The position numbers and the translations under genes are program-made. Below, in pieces: positions 1 to 14,390 of a stretch of DNA of 64,000 nt. The notes under the pieces are model-generated. The model had not been told where the DNA came from, did no database searches, and saw only the letters and a program-made list of their open reading frames with translations. Location of the stretch: assembly GCA_033807695.1 (NCBI GenBank), contig CM066303.1, forward strand, positions 1,984,001 to 2,048,000, written 5' to 3'. How positions within the stretch are numbered: the stretch's first letter is position 1; each line of letters begins with the position of its first letter. The stretch is from Daedaleopsis sinensis. Lineage: Eukaryota; Basidiomycota; Agaricomycetes; Polyporales; Polyporaceae.

Positions 1-1640
1 TGCGAGGGTTCCCGGAAGGAAAACCCAACGCCGTTGTACATCGCGCCGATGCGGGCGTGCACTAGAAAGAAGACAAGAAGTCAGCAAGAATACCAAGAGA
101 AGAAGGGGGAAGGTACTGACCTTTGACCGTCCCCTGGACGCTCAGGTGGTCGTACGCGCAAGAGAAGCTTTTCCCCTTCTTCTTGCAGAAGTTGCAGCGG
201 AACGCGGAAGGGTCCGGACGTCTGCAGGTGACCCCGGCGCGACGGCACTCGTCGCAGTCGCCCTCGATCTGCACGGCGCTGGACAACTCCACGGAACCTT
301 GGCGAGTGGAAGGAGGCTTCTTGTTGCGCTTCTTGACCCTAGGCGACAACTCGACGACGGGAGGCGGACGTTTGCGGGGCGAGGTGCGGGACTTCTTCTT
401 AGGAGGCTCCTCCTCCTCGAGTTGGTCGACTTCTTCTTCGCCTTCATCGTCGACCTCGCCCTCGGCATCGCGGTCGGAATCGTCCGCGGGAGGAGAAACC
501 GCCTTACGCTTTCCCTTGTCGACGGGCTTCTTGGGCGGCTCGCTCTCATCGGTGCTGAAGAAGAGGGGCGTCTTCTTCCTCTTCAGCGGCAGCTGAGACA
601 GCGGAGGAGGAGGAGGTTGGTCAGGCGAGAGGGGGGAGCGTGTGCGGAAACGACGAGGAGAGTCGCGCTGGGCAGCGTCGGCCAGAGGCTCGTCGTCAGA
701 AGCTTCCTCGTCGGGAACGTACTCGACACCAGTGACCATCGCAGCCAGGAAGGCGTCGCCAGGAAGGGCATCGGGGTCAGACGAAGGCGCGGTTGACGAG
801 GAAGTGGGGCGTGTGACGAGCATCCTCGTGAGACGCTTCTTGTCGAGGACCGGGACGTAACGCATGCCGGACAGCAAAGGCAAGAACTGGTCGACGCGAG
901 TGTCGATGGTTTCACGAGAGGCGCGCATGTCGGGCGGGTAATCGGCGACCTCCATCCAGCGTGGCTGGATGATCTCGTGGTACCAATTCACTGCAAGGAA
1001 GAAGCGGTCTTAGTCAAGCAAGAGTGAGGGCGAAGAACGTGAGTACTTACGCTCGAAGAAGCCCAGCCGAAGGCGGTGAGCCTGGAAGGCGATGTCGATC
1101 TCCAGCGGGGACTCCGTGACGGTGCTCGAAACCGCGAACAGCCGCAACCGGCGAGAAGTCAGCGCGTACGAGCGAAAGAACTCCGAGACCAGGGAGGGCG
1201 GCGCGTAAAACTCGAACGTCGGGAGCGCGGCGAGGAGCAGGGGATCCAGGTACCAATTCCACTCTGGGACGAGACGGTGCTGCGAAAAAGGAATGTGTCA
1301 GCGAGACAAGACTTGGAAGGCCGGGACGGCGTACCAGAGCCATGACGATACGATCAAACATGGCCTTGAACGTGCCATATGAGAACGTAGCGAGCTGGTC
1401 GTCGGTGTACTCTTCCAAGATCGCCCGGAAGTCGCTGATCGTCAGCGGAGCGGCGTCCTGATCGCGAAGCTCGTCAGGCGTAGTAGGAACGGGCTCCTCA
1501 CAGCCAAGTCGATCGGATTCACGCGTGAATTGCAACGGGAGCCACTTGAACAGCTCCTTGGGGATCGGTCGCCGAGGAGCATCGGAAGACGAGCGAGTGG
1601 CGGCGACGTTGGAAGACGAGCGACGGTTGGAAGCGGACAT
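1..1640 (-). CDS. Zn2Cys6-cluster protein, partial at window edge
   Basis: Unknown function. Proposed exons 1640-1335, 1279-1051, 990-121 and 61-<1, joined by GT-AG introns of 55, 60 and 59 bp that keep one frame; the gene continues beyond base 1, so at least 488 residues are present. The start is the first ATG (MSASNRR). The N-terminal 250 residues are ordinary globular sequence. Residues 290-420 are disordered, with proline, lysine and long acidic runs. Six cysteines at about 424, 427, 434, 444, 447 and 456 have spacing C-x2-C-x6-C-x9-C-x2-C-x8-C, which fits the fungal Zn2Cys6 binuclear cluster, although that domain is usually N-terminal. Last of three co-directional genes (1-3101). A DNA-binding or mobile-element-encoded role is inference only. 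Confidence 0.7.
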
Positions 1641-4081: not shown

Positions 4082-5305
4082 TTACCCCATCAGCGAGCGG
4101 CCACCGTCCGTGGAACCTGTTTTGAGAAAGCGGTTAGCATCCCAGATCATCTTCTCGTCGACGGAGTCGATCCAGGCATTCCAGTGGCCCCCCTTCGCTG
4201 TACGAATGGCGTCAGTATAGCGGTTCCTGTAGCGGCGGTACTCAGCGTGCGCGGGGTGTGCGCGCTCCCCCCGGTGTCCGTGCGCCACCCTACCGAGCCT
4301 CTCCTTCTCCTTTCGCATGCTGGTCAACTCCTTCGACCACCATCTCTTCGCGTAGGGCATGTCCGGGGAGAGCGGGGCGTGCTCCTCGATAGTGGTTTGC
4401 AGGTCGTCCATGAGAGCATCGAGAGTCGAGTCGAAGTCCTGGGGTGACGCAATCGCGGCGGGGAGGGCCCGGGCTCCTAGTCGCGTAGCGAGTGACTTGT
4501 TGAAGTCGACCCAGTCCACTTTGCGGAAGTCGCGCCGGACCCGCGGTACTGCTTCTTCAGTAGGCAAGTCGAAAACTGTGAGAATGGGGAAGTGGTCAGT
4601 CAAGATTGGGCGCAGGTCCTCTGCGACTCTGCATGACTGCACGTGCTCGAGTAGCGGCTCGGAGCAGAAAACGTTGTCGGGGCGGGTCCTGGACTTCGTG
4701 TTCATAGACTCGAGTGTGGCCAGGGAGGGGGGTAACGCCATTTCCATGCCGAGGTCCGCAACCCGATTAATCAGTAGCTCTGCGCGGGATAGATTAGCCC
4801 TCGAGAAGAGTTGATGGTTCGCCGGGTCGTCCCAGTTGGGGTGGTGTCGATTAAAGTCGCCTAGCCAGACGAAGTGGTGCTCGCCGTCTCCGGCCGCCAC
4901 GAGTGTCCGAGCCGCCCTCGCGGCCGCATGTATGGCGGTGTCGTGCGCGCCGTCCACATAAAAGTTGAAGAGATGGACCGTCGCGCCCGCCGTCTTGATC
5001 GAGACCCCCGTGAGGTCCGGGTGCGGGATGCTGACTGGTGTCCACGTGTTCGTCAAGATCCGCGTGTTGATGAGGAGGACCGAGCGTGTGCGACCCGCGG
5101 TGTCCCTGTCACGTACCGCCGGGTACACCGTTCTCCAGTGCGGGGTGCTACGGGTGAGACGGAGGTGGTCAATGTATGGTTCTTGAATCGCGATGACGTC
5201 GTAGTCGGATGGGAGCGCGCTGTGAAGAAGTTCGAGTTGGCCGTCTAACGATCTGTTAATGTTCTGCTGCCAGACGCGGAGGATAGGTGCAACCACGGCT
5301 TTCAA
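4082..5305 (-). CDS. LINE ORF2, APE-type endonuclease only (RT absent)
   Basis: About 407 residues of the exonuclease-endonuclease-phosphatase fold, the enzyme that nicks target DNA to prime reverse transcription. Visible catalytic motifs: QQNIN (N15/N17), IQEPY (E42), WLGDFNRHHPNWDD (D150, N152, H154-155) and LTDHFP (D237, H238), all in the usual order. The ORF ends with FLKTGSTDGGRSLMG and a TAA stop, exactly where reverse transcriptase should follow, so the element cannot move on its own. No ATG opens the frame: its first codon overlaps the ORF1 stop (TTGA, 5305-5302), which suggests stop-restart translation or readthrough coupling in the intact parent. Confidence 0.85.
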   Translation of the reverse strand: MKAVVAPILRVWQQNINRSLDGQLELLHSALPSDYDVIAIQEPYIDHLRLTRSTPHWRTVYPAVRDRDTAGRTRSVLLINTRILTNTWTPVSIPHPDLTGVSIKTAGATVHLFNFYVDGAHDTAIHAAARAARTLVAAGDGEHHFVWLGDFNRHHPNWDDPANHQLFSRANLSRAELLINRVADLGMEMALPPSLATLESMNTKSRTRPDNVFCSEPLLEHVQSCRVAEDLRPILTDHFPILTVFDLPTEEAVPRVRRDFRKVDWVDFNKSLATRLGARALPAAIASPQDFDSTLDALMDDLQTTIEEHAPLSPDMPYAKRWWSKELTSMRKEKERLGRVAHGHRGERAHPAHAEYRRYRNRYTDAIRTAKGGHWNAWIDSVDEKMIWDANRFLKTGSTDGGRSLMG

Positions 5306-6990
5306 TACGTGGTGGGGGGCGGGTCCCTGGGGGGTGCGCCGAAGAAGGTGTCGAGGTTAACTTGGCGAGGGCCCTGAGCTGCCCGGTCGGAGGGGAACCT
5401 ATGCGCGATATGGTCCCACAAAGAGGGGGGAGGAGGCGCGCGGAGCATGGACTCCTCATCCGTGACCCATGTGTCGGGGTCGCTCGTGACGAAGTACCTA
5501 AAACCGTTGTCAGCGCGTCGAGCGGCGTAGTCACGCACCTTTTTGCGGTACGCAGGACAGGCGCGGTCCCATGCTGCGTGGCCGTCCTCTTCGCAGTTGA
5601 CGCAGCGGAAGAGGGCGGGCTCCTTGACCGTACACTGATGGGTGGGGTGGTGGCTGGCGCAGACCGCGCAGATCGGGTGGCGGCACGGACATTCTCTGGC
5701 CAGGTGGCCGTCGTAAGCTTGGCAGTTGAGGCATCTAGCCGGCTCCTTGATATCGCGCCGCACTATAACCTTGCGACCAGCGAGCGTGAGGCCCTTGAGG
5801 GCGTGATTAGCTTGGTCGACGCTGGTGAATATCAGTTTCAGGTATGCGGTGCGCTGGCCCGGATAGCGCTTCTCGATGAGCCTGATCCACTCGGCACGAA
5901 CGATGGCTCCGTCTTGAAGGCCGTGTGCGCGTTCAACCTCGCGCAGCGTCTCCGCGTCGTTCGGGGTAAACCCGACCGGGACAAACTCTGCTACTAGCTC
6001 GTACGTGCGCTCGATGATCTTGGCGCTGGTACCCATCTTCCTGGTAAAGGAGGTGTTGACGTGCGGTTTGAGCAGCCAGCGGGCCATGTCGCGAGATGTG
6101 AGGGTGTAAACGACGTCGCCGTGTCGCTGTACTTTTGCGGAGTCGATCGCCGCGTCCTTCGGTGCCGTGAGCCCCTCGCTGGCCATGATGTCGATCGCTT
6201 GTCGAGCTCGCTCCAGTGCCTCCCGGTCCGTCAGCCTGGACCCGCTTGCGTCCGTGATGGCGGCCCCTCGCACCAGCACCTGCCGCTGGAGTAGATCTGC
6301 GAGGTCCACCGCCCGACGTGTTCGGGCGGGAGCAGTGTCTAACGAGACGTGGGAGAGGGAGGGGGGCGCACCTGGGGCGTCCTGAGAGCCCTTCAACGTC
6401 TGTAGCTCCTCCCGTGCTCCTGCCAAAGCCTCCGCAGCCGCCTCCAGGCCCTTCCTCGCTTCTGCCATCTGCCCCGAGCACTCCACCATCACTCTTCTCG
6501 CGGCATCCATCCCTTCCGCCCCGGATGTGATTTCTTGCTCGACTCTGTCGGTGTGTGCGTCTAGGCGGAGCGTCAGCTGGGTTTCGATCTTCTCGGCGAC
6601 CGTCGCGACGAGAGTTCCATCTAGTTTCTTGTAAGGTATGGCCTTCGCCAGGTGGGCGAAAGCGATGAGGCTTTTCCGCGCGAGGTCGGCGGTCGGCGCG
6701 GAGAAAGCGAGATGGAGAAGGCCGGTGACCAGCGAGGCGTCCGTGATAGCGTCGTCACCTTCCGGGACCAGAGTCCGCTTGCGTAGGAAGTCGAGGGAGA
6801 CGTCGAGGTCCGGGAGATGTTCCTCCGCGTCTCGGAAAAGTTGACGCTGTGTCTTCGCTGTCGTCGTCGTCCCCGCCGCCGCTCGAGCCGGCGCCGGTGC
6901 TGAGCTGGCACTGGCGCCTATTCGTCGTCTCAGTTGTCGCGTCGCCTCGTTCGCCGGAGTCGACTTTCCAGCCTGCCCGTTGTTGGTCAT
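5302..6990 (-). CDS. LINE ORF1, gag-like nucleic-acid-binding protein
   Basis: 562 residues from the ATG of MTNNGQAGKST; the open frame reaches 7080, but that extension runs into an inserted MITE, so the 6990 start is preferred. Residues 1-60 are Ala/Thr/Ser-rich. The middle is helical with an RNA-recognition-like region. The C-terminal zinc knuckles are C420-x2-C423-x5-H429-x4-C434, then a Cys/His-rich spacer, then C463-x2-C466-x4-H471-x6-C478. These knuckles are the hallmark of LINE ORF1 and bind element RNA. The frame is intact, so loss of the element is recent or limited to its 3' half. Confidence 0.85.
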   Translation of the reverse strand: MTNNGQAGKSTPANEATRQLRRRIGASASSAPAPARAAAGTTTTAKTQRQLFRDAEEHLPDLDVSLDFLRKRTLVPEGDDAITDASLVTGLLHLAFSAPTADLARKSLIAFAHLAKAIPYKKLDGTLVATVAEKIETQLTLRLDAHTDRVEQEITSGAEGMDAARRVMVECSGQMAEARKGLEAAAEALAGAREELQTLKGSQDAPGAPPSLSHVSLDTAPARTRRAVDLADLLQRQVLVRGAAITDASGSRLTDREALERARQAIDIMASEGLTAPKDAAIDSAKVQRHGDVVYTLTSRDMARWLLKPHVNTSFTRKMGTSAKIIERTYELVAEFVPVGFTPNDAETLREVERAHGLQDGAIVRAEWIRLIEKRYPGQRTAYLKLIFTSVDQANHALKGLTLAGRKVIVRRDIKEPARCLNCQAYDGHLARECPCRHPICAVCASHHPTHQCTVKEPALFRCVNCEEDGHAAWDRACPAYRKKVRDYAARRADNGFRYFVTSDPDTWVTDEESMLRAPPPPSLWDHIAHRFPSDRAAQGPRQVNLDTFFGAPPRDPPPTTY

Positions 6991-7010
6991 GGTCGCCAGA
7001 ATGTAGACTA

Positions 7011-7499
7011 CAGCTGGTGTCAAAATTAATGCCCGACAGACGCTGATGACGCAAAACACGCCAGCGCAACATTTGTGCATGAACGGATGTGTACTCTGTA
7101 AAAAATAGCTACATCCCCCTTGGTATCTCAGTAAGCTTTATTTCTGCTCTTGAAAGCTTCATGAAACATTTAGGAGGCGAAGGCATGCGTGCTCGTCCAC
7201 ACAGAGTATGTTTTGGAGAGCAGGTTTGGGCGCCTGAGAGCACCCATCTGAGCGTCTACAGCAGTCTTTGCTAGACGCCTGAGACGTGTCGCTATCCTTC
7301 GTCATTGTACGAAGTCTCCCAGAGGCATAGGCCTCTCAAACTCACAGATTGATCTCACATGTCACTAGTAGAGTGTAGATATTGTCTATAATTTGTCACA
7401 GACCGGGATACGAATTGTTGTGCTGTCACTTGTAGATTTTTGTCGACTCGCGCGTTTGCGTGCTCGGCGTTTGTCGGGCATTAATTTTGACACCAGCTG
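7011..7499. mobile_element. Tc1/mariner-like MITE, 489 bp
   Basis: Terminal inverted repeats start CAGCTGGTGTCAAAATTAAT and remain matched for about 35 bp, then more loosely to about 60 bp. Both ends are flanked by TA (7009-7010 and 7500-7501), the classic target duplication of Tc1/mariner/pogo elements. No transposase ORF, so non-autonomous. It lies 20 bp upstream of the LINE ORF1 ATG, inside the likely LINE 5' leader. Confidence 0.85.
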
Positions 7500-7538
7500 T
7501 AAGAGTATGTAAACTAGCTATCTAATACCAGAGAGCCA

Positions 7539-7548
7539 GGTATGCCGC
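7539..7548. repeat. Target-site duplication, left
   Basis: GGTATGCCGC directly before the left terminus of the 6-kb element; the identical 10 bp follow its right terminus at 13569-13578. Confidence 0.85.
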
Positions 7549-7677
7549 TAGTCTCGTGACCAGACGTTCGGAGCACGAAGCGGAGATGAAAAACAGCGTG
7601 AATCAGTGCTCCTGAACGTCTGGTGGCTTTCCCCCTGTGACACCCCCCATGGTGACCCTGTAGTGACATTTGTGACA
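7549..7677 (+). repeat. Left terminal inverted repeat with foldback hairpin
   Basis: The outer block (7549-7574) and inner block (7608-7650) match the right terminus in reverse. Within the terminus CCAGACGTTCGGAGC (7560-7574) pairs with GCTCCTGAACGTCTGG (7608-7623), giving a 15-bp stem with one bulge and a 33-nt loop. Four GTGAC motifs follow between 7636 and 7677. Confidence 0.85.
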
Positions 7678-7722
7678 ATCCAGCTTGTTCTCCGACATCT
7701 CCGAGCTGCTTCTTTCGCGTCT

Positions 7723-10532
7723 ATGTCTGCCGATGCTGGCTTCCCACCCGATACTACCCCCGACGATCTGCTCAGTGGATGGGGATCTCTCTTCGATGAG
7801 AACGATGAGGACGCTGATACGTTAAACCGAGACACCGAATACGAGAGCGACCGACTTTCTGATGCCTCCGATTGGGATCCTGTGGAGGTCCGAGATGAAG
7901 AAGTCCCCCGCTTTCCGCCCATTCACCTTGCCCAAACCCGTGTACTCCGGGAACGTCTCGGTTCCGCCAACAAGGCAGAACGTGTTGTTGCTATTCTGGA
8001 GTACATGGAATCCCTTGATATGAATGTTCCCATCTTCTTGGATGCTCTAAGCTGGGGAGATGATTCATGTATCTCGAACGCCAAAATCCAGTATGCCCGC
8101 ACAGCTCTTATGCTCAGTGAAGAGCTTCCAGGTATCCTTGACCGATGGCACAAAGTTCCACAAGCAAGTACCTCTCGCCACCATCATGTCCGTCCTCAAG
8201 GTGCACGCAAAGCTCTTGAGAAGTTCGCGCTGGACTGCGTAGCAAACATTATGGACCGTGAGCTAGAAGCAACTGCCACAATCTTCCGCTCATCCAAGGA
8301 ATCCCTCTCCGAAGAGGGACTGAAGAGCTTCCAGTTCCGCGACGTTGCTAGGCAGCTGCAAAAAGAGTCTGGTGCTCCCAATACGTACCGTCTAATCCAC
8401 GGTGCAATGCATCGTGCTCTACGCCGTCGAGGTGTCTCCGAAGGTGCAGATAGCCATCATCATGGACCAAGCCGCAAGCATACAGAGTCCGTGAGTGTTT
8501 TAGAGTATTGGATCAAGTTAATGCGTGTAAGCATGAGCCGAACTCGTTACAGTGCTGAATAGTTGTTAGGCAACGGTCATGATGTTCAGCGAGCTACAAT
8601 ACATGCGTTGCAATAGCCTCACTGCGTGGACAAAACCCCTGACTGTGTTCCTCAAAGCCAAGGGGGTGTCTGCAAAGGCACTGGACCTCCTCCATATCTT
8701 GGGTGTCACGATGAGTCACAGCTGGAGTGTGCGCGCATACGCTCAAATATCTGCTCACGCTATGGAGAAAATCCAGATGCTTATCCTCGTACTACTCTGG
8801 TGGCTTGCATATGACAACGTGAACTTCGCGTTCCGTGTCTTCTCCCAACGTATCGACAACCAGTCGCATTTCGACTCGGGTACCACAGGATCGATATTTG
8901 TCAAGCCATTTGCTGCGCCGTCTCCTCCCTTGCGGAGTGACACATTACGGGAGCAACGCATCACAGGACGGCAGAGTCCCATCACCCTGAACGAGATTGT
9001 ATCTCTTGAGGTGCAAGCAGGGCCTCGTATCCACTCTCATATTGTCGACACTGTTCTACGCATGCTGCTAGACTGCCCCGAGTTCAATCTCAAGTCGTAT
9101 ATCGAGAATGACCACGCTACCCTGTCCCCTCCTCCTCCAGTCCATCGACTTCCAAGCGGGCCTCTACACATCACCAAGCAGTATGTTCTCGGCACGGTCC
9201 ACATTGACGAGTCGAGCTATGAAGGGACAGACGATCTAATCAAAGAATGGTTTCGTCAGCTTCAACTCAATGGCATAGAAGAGCAGGTTCGCACGGGACT
9301 GGATCGGGTCGTCGTTTGGATCGGGGATCAACTCACCGTGGAGCGTCTTCGTGGCCTCTGGAACTTCCATTGCGAGGATCGTAATGCATTTGACCGCCTC
9401 GATTGGCTTGTGGTGGTTTTCGGATGGTTCCATTTGCTTATGGCGTTCGCGAACTCGCTCCATCGCCAGTACTTCGGGTCCACATCGGGGAAGGGCCTGC
9501 GTCAGGCATTCGCACTGCTCAACCGTAAGGGGCTTCAGTCAGTGCAGATCAAAGGACCGTTTCATCATCACTTACACGAAGGCATTCTTCACGTCGCGGA
9601 AGCACACATTCTGGACTGCTGGCTGAAGGTCGGGGAGGTTGAGAAGCTGGAGGACCTTCGGGACCGATCGCCTGCGCAGCTCAAGGAGCTGGCCGAGCGC
9701 CTTGTGGAGATGTATGCGTCGAACGACGCTGTCGAAGACCTAGAGGCCAAGATGGATGATCAGCGCGATGAGGTTCTGCAACATGCAATCATGTGGAACC
9801 GAGACGTACTGTATTACATCGTCCTCCACCGCGCTATGCAGACAGGAGACATCGGGATGATGGAAGACCTCCTTCCTCATTTGTTCTTGCGCTTTTCGGG
9901 AGGCGGGAACCATAAGTACGCGGTCGAGTGCCTGGAGCTACTACAAGGCCTTCATCGCGAATGGCCGGAGGACGTAAAGTAAGTTATTATCTGTGTGACG
10001 TCATGGATTAAGACTCACCACATCGTCATGCAGGCATCACGTTCGCGAGAATTGCTGGCTTGTCAACTTGAAGGGTGGTCCAGAAGACTTCGCGGCAATA
10101 GACTTGGTGATTGAACATACTGTGAAGGAGGTGAAAGTGACATACCGCCCTCAAGGACCGCACGCTTCGTGGGACTTGATGAAAGCACGCGCACCCGCGA
10201 TCCCCACGCTCCGCACCCTGGATGAAGATTTCAATCGTCAATTCCCAACAATCTACCGTGGTACTAGGCATACCTCACCTGCGAAAGCGAGGGATGTGAA
10301 GAAACTCATGGAGTTTTATCACCACGCGCGGCTGCATGACTACGATCCGGGGCGCGAGGCTGCCGATTCTATCAAGGAGGTTGTCAGCGATGGATATAAC
10401 ACGGCAAACACAAGTCTCTTACCAAAGTGGAAACAACGGCGAGCACCATACCAGCGCGCATCAACGGAGAAGTGGCCTGAAGACGTTCTATCGCACACTG
10501 GGGCCGCCTACCACGAGCGTGGAGCAGAGTGA
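7723..10532 (+). CDS. DUF6589-like protein, proposed transposase, 891 aa
   Basis: Three exons: 7723-8490, 8570-9978, 10034-10532; introns of 79 and 55 bp keep the frame (HTES-ATVMMF and EDVK-HHVREN). Start is the ATG of MSADAGFPPD just inside the left terminus; an upstream in-frame start would lie in the inverted repeat. The N-terminus (to about 70) is acidic. Residues 270-800 match what I recall of DUF6589, a basidiomycete family: WIGDQLT (D509), VVFGWFHLLMAFANSLH (540-555), FHHHLHEGILHVAEAH (E600), GGGNHKYAVECLELLQGLHREWP (about 700-722). D338 after a hydrophobic strand, D509 after another and a later Glu would suit a DDE/RNase H fold, and GWFH resembles the Cys/His motif of Mutator transposases. 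Catalytic role is inference. Confidence 0.8.
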
Positions 10533-10548
10533 CTCTTCTAGAAGTGCT

Positions 10549-13353
10549 TCATGAGTCGTCCTCGGGGTATGATGAATGGAAATCTGGAGCAGGGAGAGGA
10601 GGGAGGGGAGCACCGGAGGTCGGAGAGACGATCACAACGGACGATGAAGGGCTTGGGTAGACACCGGGGTGAGCGAGCAAGGAGGCAGTGTTGGGCGTCT
10701 GAGACGTCGAGGCTGCTGTAGACGAAGTGGATGGCCAGGCATGAAATACAGATGCGAATGGTAAGGGTGAGGGAGCAGGAGGATAGTAGTACATACTATA
10801 CGGATATGCGTACTGTGTAGGGGGGGATGTAGACGGCGGAGCCGCTGAAGGGGCGTTCAAAGCAGCGGATGGGTGCATGGGTCCGGCATAAGAGCCCACA
10901 GTCTGCGCCCACTGCTTGTGTACTTTCGCTGCTTGCTTTGCGGCAGCTTCTTGAGCGCGCCGCTGCAGTGTCTGGGCTTTCCGCACTTCACGGGCGGCCA
11001 GCGTAGCAGCCCGGCGCCGTGAATCCTCGTCCTCATCGAGATGTTTGACAATCTGGAGCACTTCGTCGCCATGATCGTCAAGCTGTGGCCAAGGAGGTTT
11101 GAGAAGCGAACGGAGATCCACGATGGTCTTGACACCACGTCGATGGGAGGCAATCGTCTTGAGGTTCGGTTCTGGAAGAAGGTTCACGGCCTTCAAGGAT
11201 GTGAAGCGATAGCGGGCACGGCGTGTCTTGAGACGCCAATCCCGGAGGGCATTCTGCACGGTCCTAAGATGTTCTCCACCACGCCGCTTGGGGGAGAGAC
11301 GGCCCAGTGCCTCAGGTTGACGACTGGGTCTCTGCGGTGTCCCAGGACTCGGAGGCCCGGGTTGAATGTTCTCCTGACCGCCGTCCTATCCATATCAGCA
11401 TTTTCTCACCTAGTAGAGCAGTGTGATACGTACCTGCGCCGTTTGAGAACCATTCTCCTCTTCATTCCTGTCGTCCTCGCCCTCGCCCTGATCCAACGCC
11501 TCCTCCGAGATCTCATTGATTGCAGGAGCGGCCACTTCTGGCATCGCGGCGCTAGTAGCTTCGTGACGGAGCGGTGACATGGCTGGGCAGCCCGAGTCTG
11601 TCTCCACAGAGACAGTAGAGGGGGTAGATGGGCACTGTGCCGCACAACTGTCGCAGCACAATAGCGGGGGGTGTTCTGGGTGAGAGTGGGAGTCAGGAAG
11701 TCACATCCGCCTGCCAGACGAAGGTTCACACCGCTGGCGCCTAATGTTACGTACCTGTAGCGCGCGGGGGGTTGTCGAAGTACCTGTCTGCAACAGCTCT
11801 TCGACAACCCTCCGTCTCGATCCACAGCCGGAGACTATCTTCGATTTCTTTCTTGTACTTAACTTTTGGCTCCTCTCTGGCAAGTTCCTCCTCGATTTCC
11901 TCGAACTCGGAGTCGGATCCAGGGTCGTCTGCCACGACGTTCAGTGCCGTACCAGTCTTGCGACCGTTCTCCCGGCTGCCGACCCTTTGGACCACTGACC
12001 GCTCAACAAGCATCACTGCCCGAGCCTGAAGTGCTGGTGAACGTCCAGCTCGGCCGGCACGCTGAAGCCAGATGCCAAGATTCTCCGGCACTCCAAACTG
12101 AACAGCAAGGGCAATATCTGGTACGTCCATGCCCTGACCAAACAAACTGTCAGATCGTCCATGATGCACAACTGGCAGTCGGCTCACCATGGCTGCAGCT
12201 TCAGTTGCAACGAGGATCCGGATCTTCCCTGTCCGGAACAACTCCCACTCGTCGGCGCGAGAGAAATCGGACCTCTTGGCGTGCAGTATACCAATCTGGT
12301 CTCGCAGCGCATCTCCGACAACCTCACGCAAGCGATGCGCGACCGCGTGACTCTTTGGGATTGTGTTGACAAAGATTATAGTGCGCGGTAAGTCAGATTT
12401 CGTTTGTGCGCCTTTGACAACGAAGTCGACCGCGCTATAGTCTGTTGCAGACCTCATATACCGCATCTCTTGCATGATGTTTGCGCGGTCATTTCCAAGA
12501 TTGAGGTGGAACGAGCGATGTGCCCGGATGCCGAGGTTCGAACGGGTGAGGTCGAGGGCTAGTGGAGTGAAGGTTGCTGACGTCGCCAGGACAGGTACCG
12601 GACACGGCACGAGTGCTCGTAGTCCCTCCAAGCTGCCATACTGCTTCCGGAAATCGTGTCCCCACTGCATGATACAGTGAGCCTCGTCGACAATGAACGC
12701 GCCGATGCGCACAGCGAATTTGGGCTTCGATAACAGTGCTCGAAACCTCGGATGTTCGGTCATCTCAGGAGATGTAAGTACTATCCGGTACTTCCCCTGC
12801 TCTATTTCCTATAGTTATCGTGTTAGTCCCGCTTCGAGCTCATGACATTGCTCATAGACACACCTCTAACAGCCTCTCCTTATATGTCCCTCCATTGACG
12901 GCTACAGCTGGAACCTCCAACTTTGCGAAACGCAGAACCTGCACGAAAAGGGGGTCCCACCATACCATGTCAGTGAACGCTCACAGCCGGAAGATGTCCA
13001 ATTTGAAGTCCCACTTGGTCGGCCTCGAGGGCATTCAAAGGTGAGATCACAAAATATATCTTCTTGTCTTCTACAAAACTGGGCATGATAAACGGCATAG
13101 TTTTTCCGCACCCGGTTCCGGCGATGACTGTACAGTCGAGTCCCAGCAATATAGCCTCTGCAACATCCAGCTGCCAGGGATGTGGACTCTTGCCGTCCAT
13201 CCTCTCCTCGAATGTCCGTGTCATCTTTGACCTGACAGCGACGGAACTATATCCGTGCGTCGCTTGCGCGGCGTCGCGTGCGGCTTGCAAGACTTCGTAC
13301 GACCGGGCGGTTTCCACTTCATGCGAGAGCACGCGAGAGGCGGCAGGTGCCAT
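10549..13353 (-). CDS. RecQ-like ATP-dependent DNA helicase, 830 aa
   Basis: Six exons: 13353-13015, 12938-12864, 12808-12188, 12133-11755, 11675-11434, 11385-10549, all with frame-keeping GT-AG introns of 48-79 bp. Superfamily 2 motifs in order: Q61 motif, Walker A GTGCGKT (79-85), ISPLNALEADQ, TSPEM, DEAHCIMQW (179-187), ATSATF (about 213-218), VATEAAAMGMDVPD, QRAGRAGR (369-376). The cysteine-rich ETEGC...CCDSCAAQC (478-486) segment resembles the RecQ zinc subdomain. The C-terminal 340 residues are not RecQ: a basic helical part, then a Pro/Ser/Tyr-rich tail. RecQ unwinds DNA 3'-5'; here it may help excision or repair of the element. Lying inside the inverted repeats argues against a host gene. 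Confidence 0.85.
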
Positions 13354-13439
13354 AGTGGTGTTGTACAGCGACAGAATAGGGAAGCAGTTGTCGTAGATGT
13401 GGAAGCTATGAAAGATTCGCGCTCATGCATTGTCCGGAA

Positions 13440-13568
13440 TGCTCGGACGACTGCTCGCTGTTGTCACACACGTCACCAACCGGGGGGTCACGGGGGGAAA
13501 GCTACCAGACGTTCAGGAGCGCGGGTACTCCCGCATTTTCACGCTCCGAACGGCTGGTTCCGAGACTA
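13440..13568 (-). repeat. Right terminal inverted repeat with foldback hairpin
   Basis: Mirror of the left terminus. CCAGACGTTCAGGAGC (13505-13520) pairs with GCTCCGAACGGCTGG (13543-13557). The loop holds a second palindrome GCGGGTACTCCCGC (13521-13534). Three GTGAC motifs on the minus strand lie just inside. Confidence 0.85.
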
Positions 13569-13578
13569 GGTATGCCGC
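13569..13578. repeat. Target-site duplication, right
   Basis: GGTATGCCGC, identical to 7539-7548. Confidence 0.85.
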
Positions 13579-14390
13579 ACGCTAACAGCCTCCCCTGTAA
13601 GGCTGGAGCGTGGGAAATATCCGGGTGGTGGTGGTAGCAGATCAAGAAGGGTCCCATGCGCAAGTTCAACATGATCAAGGTGCGCCATATCTCTGAAGCT
13701 TCCTTTGTTTTGATGTACACTGCGGCGCGCGCTTGATTTTACCTGACACTTCTTGTCGACAGGCCCACAGGGTGAACACATTGGTCCATTCGAAAGCGTA
13801 TTCCGAAGACGAGTTTTTCGCGACGCAGCCTTTGCATCCGTATCTCGAAGGTCAGAGTCGTATCTGTTGCTGAGGAAAATATATTAACGGACGTCCATGC
13901 TAGCCCTTGGTTCCTCGTTGAACGCTTCCCCCGTCCGCAACGTCCGGCCCTGGGGGGCGTATCATGATATAGGCTGGCTGGCGATCCTGCCCTGGGATAT
14001 TGGACGACAGTCAGCTGCTCCGCGATACCTTCCAGTCGACGTGTACTGCTGCATTTCTGGATGAAGAGCGGCGTTGTAATTGTGAGCGAACGTAAATGGT
14101 CCTCGCATCTAGGGCTGTTCATGATGCTGTGGGGTCGAATAGGAATGTCAAGGCCTATCCTCATTCTTCGCTGCCCATCCGTGGCTCCCTGAAGTGTAAG
14201 TGGTTGTTGAACGTTGCAGGCTAGGCCTATGGCTCGTACAGGTCAGACGGCTTTCAGAGGATGTGACACCAACCTGACCTGGCGTGACTCGGTCCGTGCC
14301 CGAATCTCTCCTTCTGCCCCTCAGATGATGCATCCCTCTCGCAACAGTGCGCGATAACACAATAGTACTGACGATTTAAGCAGCATCGGA
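13579..14390. other. Intergenic, no recognisable gene
   Basis: Only short ORFs in several frames and no motif, tRNA-like fold or clear promoter. Because the 6-kb element is an insertion, this is the original right neighbour of the sequence at 7500-7548 and may be LINE leader or host DNA. Confidence 0.5.

Follow-up and report, generated by a model that had tools for sequence, protein, structure and literature searches.

We describe a two-gene DNA transposon in a 64,000-nt stretch of the fungus Daedaleopsis sinensis (contig CM066303.1 of assembly GCA_033807695.1, positions 1,984,001 to 2,048,000; hereafter the window), and conclude that it is probably an AcademH transposon in which a DUF6589 protein serves as an RNase H-fold DDE transposase and is accompanied by a RecQ-like helicase. 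The element occupies window positions 7549-13568 (6,020 bp) and contains two convergent, spliced genes and no others, with stop codons 16 bp apart, between imperfect terminal inverted repeats. The splice sites of both genes were picked from the sequence, without transcript evidence. Its ends read TAGTCTCG...CGAGACTA, and it is flanked by a perfect 10-bp target duplication, GGTATGCCGC, which occurs in the window at these two places only, its reverse complement being absent. An earlier note on this DNA had proposed an intact DUF6589 and RecQ gene pair between inverted repeats with a perfect 10-bp duplication, and direct reading bears this out; the element also looks autonomous, as claimed. The termini, put there at about 130 bp, are indeed inverted repeats, but imperfect ones of about 107–120 bp: aligned with the first 120 bp on the left, the right repeat is 73% identical over 107 bp, and its better-matching parts reach 79% (70 nt) and 84% (32 nt).

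We searched the genome (51.6 Mb, 24 contigs) for an empty target site and for other copies. Joining the window flanks with one copy of the duplication gives a sequence that is present at C7:1205845-1205968 (100% over 124 nt, gapless across the junction), so that the insertion was precise and fell inside a repeat copy. Another 18 matches to the joined flanks, 76-94% identical, also cross the insertion point. The exact match of the empty site suggests, but does not prove, a recent insertion. The interrupted repeat is 124 bp long (window 7500-7548 plus 13579-13653), is sharply delimited at its best copy and has 19 uninterrupted copies elsewhere; Rfam has no match for the empty-site locus or for window 7000-14000, and the repeat is therefore not a known Rfam family. 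Two independent short copies carry the element's ends, each with a duplication read by eye, at C6:1276024-1276142 (119 bp, TCTTCTAAT) and C4:3359474-3359568 (95 bp, GATTGTTTC). A further match at C4:3289528 was counted as a duplicate of the latter site because its flanks are identical.

The termini of the window element recur elsewhere in the genome, with the best match at C7 (91% over 142 bp). DUF6589 stretches number 11 by protein search and 30 by Pfam search; these 30, together with two more from the protein search, merge into at least 17 DUF6589 loci. A convergent RecQ-like match lies within 6 kb at 12 of the 17, one of which (C6:3.07 Mb) depends on a weak helicase match 5.1 kb away, and the other five have none. 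For the analysis of ends we took the window pair and seven more (six read whole, among them C2 as two overlapping pieces, and C1 by its ends only), leaving out four of the 12 (C6:3.07 Mb, C3:2.56 Mb and two at C5:4.2 Mb). In all eight pairs, which are paralogues, both genes are enclosed by inverted repeats, with an 8-10-bp target duplication; the pairs at C3, C2 and C1 emerged only after a wider search. The duplication lengths are 10, 9, 9, 8, 9, 9, 9 and 9 bp, so the 10 bp of the earlier note holds for the window element but gives way mostly to 9 bp across its relatives. Three types of ends are present: TAGTCTCG or TGGTCTCG (window, C7, C11, C6, C3), CAGGCTCC (C8, C2) and GGATAAAT (C1). It is hardly credible that two host genes lie between these repeats by chance. 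RecQ helicases do exist as host genes, and both window genes are intact, but all eight examined loci have these two genes together between inverted repeats, which contradicts such an accident, as do the empty site and the short copies that share the ends.

Within the ends, ACCAGACGT or a close variant lies near position 11, with an inverted copy at about 57-76, at each end of the window, C7, C11 and C6 elements. The interiors of these four contain zero to three ACCAGACGT-type sites per orientation, about the chance level by a rough estimate made with no formal control. The inverted pair is not found in all ends of the C3, C8 and C2 elements. From this pattern, the paired ACCAGACGT sites are likely transposase binding sites. 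The bodies of the C11 and C6 elements (loci L051 and L052) are about 82% identical and their opposite ends, compared with each other, about 97%, as if the ends had been homogenised or were more strongly constrained.

Other loci gave less complete pictures. At L007 matching ends were found on one strand only, and at L008 a right end with an uncertain left counterpart; no duplication was found at either locus. At L056-L059, which have no close convergent partner, the scan gave no inverted repeat with arms over 1.5 kb apart (the adjacent L056 and L057, parts of one contig, were scanned separately). L057 (C9:3423332-3424768) has a long DUF6589 frame with no inverted repeats detected and its nearest helicase 10 kb away and not convergent; it is perhaps a degenerate or co-opted copy.

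A comparison of the window and C7 elements indicates purifying selection on both genes, because protein identity in the exons compared is 75-81%, with synonymous sites mostly saturated. The ratio of nonsynonymous to synonymous rates (dN/dS) by the NG86 method is 0.028 for DUF6589 exon 2, 0.045 for helicase exon 1 and 0.155 for helicase exon 4, and is undefined for DUF6589 exon 1 and helicase exon 3. The YN00 method returned a single value among the five comparisons, 0.205 for helicase exon 4. Since dS is saturated or undefined in four of the five, we limit the claim to purifying selection as such.

We now consider the DUF6589 protein. It matches the Pfam profile PF20231 (E = 3.3e-100 for exon 2 and 1.3e-19 for exon 3), as the earlier note had anticipated. 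The match starts at about residue 390, outside the candidate first catalytic Asp at 338, which may help to explain why DUF6589 went unrecognised. Folds were compared using the model of a relative, P0001, which is 71% identical to the window protein. This model has an RNase H-like core and resembles DDE transposases such as Hermes, the P element and RAG1: the top 26 rows from VIA-align are all DDE recombinases, and Foldseek assigns the P element a probability of 0.90, yet an E-value of only 8.8e-3. Mapped onto the model, D338 would lie in the first long strand, D509 directly after a strand and E709 in a late helix (D333, D504 and E704 in P0001), and all three residues are conserved. The two aspartates are exactly those put forward in the earlier note, and the later catalytic Glu is most likely Glu709. 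Judging from the relative's fold and the conserved residues, the DUF6589 protein is thus probably an RNase H-fold DDE transposase, in line with the earlier proposal, and the probable identification of the whole family as DDE transposases is the new point here. Of the three refuting observations named in the earlier note, two are contradicted, since the termini recur and the relative's model has an RNase H-like core; the third, both genes at orthologous loci lacking inverted repeats, was addressed on paralogues, where eight of eight examined pairs have such repeats.

The best structural matches of the P0001 model are Hermes, a hAT transposase, and the P element, with which it shares an order of strands followed by a long helical stretch ahead of the last acidic residue; identity in the aligned part is only 6-11%. 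hAT and P elements are not known to carry a helicase. The usual hAT target duplication is 8 bp (PMC12730594). A Mutator-like element that acquired a RecQ gene would be compatible, as a remote relation, with the P0001 fold; no MULE transposase domain is listed by Pfam at E <= 1, and we consider this origin improbable. PF20231 was found in none of 14 control genomes, and none of the 79 DUF6589 pattern matches in viral contigs was confirmed.

The second protein has DEAD and Helicase_C matches in Pfam, and its residues 61-392 align best with WRN and RecQ structures in the PDB (E about 1e-29). In the genome, 47 helicase stretches merge into 32 helicase loci, of which 20 have no convergent DUF6589 partner within 6 kb, consistent with the inclusion of host helicases. 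A second helicase query gave eight matches, one of which (C7:2.63 Mb) has no DUF6589 locus nearby.

The pairing extends to other fungi. We compared the best 120 DUF6589 relatives with the best 120 of 6,403 RecQ relatives and found that 32 of the former lie on a contig equal in length to that of one of the latter, taken as a shared contig, with concordant organism names in 32 of 32. Eight of these contigs are shorter than 100 kb, and co-occurrence on long contigs does not establish that genes are adjacent. Four pairs bear consecutive gene numbers (ONZ51_g5810/g5811, NLJ89_g10340/g10341, ONZ45_g13520/g13521 and PAXINDRAFT_12088/12087), and BN946_scf184817.g5/g7 is a pair one gene apart. Recurrence of such neighbours was among the checks suggested in the earlier note; our survey covered gene positions. 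Among the matches listed, a relative from Daedaleopsis nitida, a polypore, is 88% identical over 77% of the query region, and the named DUF6589 relatives come from many Agaricomycetes. In two listings, each limited to the best 120 matches, nearly all the named relatives are annotated as hypothetical or uncharacterized.

AcademH, reportedly first described by Kojima in 2020 (Mobile DNA 11:15), is most likely the class to which the element belongs, an assignment that rests on matching published descriptions, not on sequence comparison. According to later papers, AcademH encodes a helicase and makes 9- or 10-bp duplications (PMC10045372), and it has few copies in the genomes of Basidiomycota, Ascomycota and Mucoromycota (PMC10799480). 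The window element likewise encodes a RecQ-like helicase, has a 10-bp duplication (9 or 10 bp in seven of the eight examined elements), and is fungal (Basidiomycota) and low in copy, with at least 17 DUF6589 loci in 51.6 Mb. The 8-bp duplication of the C6 element departs from the described length. AcademX, the sister lineage within the Academ superfamily, encodes a nuclease and duplicates 3 or 4 bp (PMC10045372), in contrast to the helicase and 8-10 bp here. Since the testable features fit the published descriptions, save for one 8-bp duplication of eight, we file the element under AcademH.

The earlier note had instead seen an undescribed type of transposon, which is probably wrong, because the helicase, duplication size and fungal low-copy status fit the descriptions of AcademH. 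An undescribed superfamily with a DUF6589 transposase and a RecQ helicase, unrelated to Academ, is unlikely but retains some weight. It would be an obligate two-component system co-inherited across Agaricomycetes, its several subfamilies distinguished by their ends (TRGTCTCG, CAGGCTCC and GGATAAAT). A literature search gave no paper naming DUF6589 (those matching PF20231 were irrelevant by title), and the comparison with Academ used published descriptions only, not transposase sequence; the helicase, the 9-10-bp duplications in seven of eight, the fungal host and the low copy number nevertheless match AcademH as described. Kolobok elements duplicate TTAA, and the varied 8-10-bp duplications at all eight examined elements therefore contradict a KolobokH element, with a Kolobok transposase and a RecQ helicase, which we regard as very improbable. 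The likeness lies in the RecQ helicase and the fungal host: KolobokH, also a DNA transposon, has such a helicase and is known from fungi only, and one red-algal Kolobok has RecQ on the complementary strand, as in the window element (PMC9587614).

Returning to the AcademH reading, we propose a mechanism. The DUF6589 transposase would bind the inverted repeats, with the paired ACCAGACGT sites as the probable contact points, and would cut or nick the element's ends. The ends would then be joined to the target by strand transfers about 9 bp apart, leading to duplications of 8-10 bp. The RecQ-like helicase may unwind DNA at the ends, or act later in strand exchange and gap repair, and the route would be cut-and-paste rather than replicative. 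The terminal repeats, the duplications, the precise insertion into a repeat, the recurring two-gene unit, the conserved residues and the transposase-like model of a relative are the directly supported parts of this scheme.

Relabelling DUF6589 relatives as transposases would correct many annotations, and the RecQ genes beside them would be reassigned from host repair to transposons. The window copy looks intact, and the genome also holds its empty site and short related copies, so the element is a good candidate for testing the helicase's role in transposition. Its features, and the duplications of the related elements, are collected in Table 1.

Table 1. Features of the window element and target duplications of seven related elements
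Feature	Position	Strand	Basis or detail
Left target-site duplication GGTATGCCGC	7539..7548		sequence read directly
Right target-site duplication GGTATGCCGC	13569..13578		sequence read directly
Left terminal inverted repeat, starts TAGTCTCG	7549..7668	+	repeat search
ACCAGACGTTC, two inverted copies in left terminal repeat	element positions 11-23, 64-76		
Right terminal inverted repeat	13462..13568	-	73% to left repeat over 107 bp
DUF6589 gene, 891 aa	7723..10532	+	exons 7723-8490, 8570-9978, 10034-10532
DUF6589 protein residues	candidate triad D338, D509, E709; also H544		conservation and relative's model
RecQ-like helicase gene, 840 aa	10549..13353	-	exons 13353-12985, 12938-12864, 12808-12188, 12133-11755, 11675-11434, 11385-10549
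C7 element			target duplication AGTGTTGAT
C11 element			target duplication CCATGCAAG
C6 element			target duplication CAGTACCC, 8 bp
C3 element			target duplication GTCCTGGGC, 9 bp
C8 element			target duplication GTCAAACCG
C2 element			target duplication CCACAACTC, 9 bp
C1 element			target duplication AAGTAGTTG

Upstream of the element, the minus strand of window 4082-7137 carries two open reading frames that are probably part of a non-LTR retrotransposon. One has an endonuclease/reverse-transcriptase-type domain (PF14529); in the other, which has no clear match in Pfam, cysteines resembling zinc knuckles were noted by eye. The arms of a 47-bp inverted repeat, 91% identical, lie at window 7009-7055 and 7455-7501, and the 63-66 bp beside it (window 7439-7504) are found at nine further genome sites at 98-100% identity.
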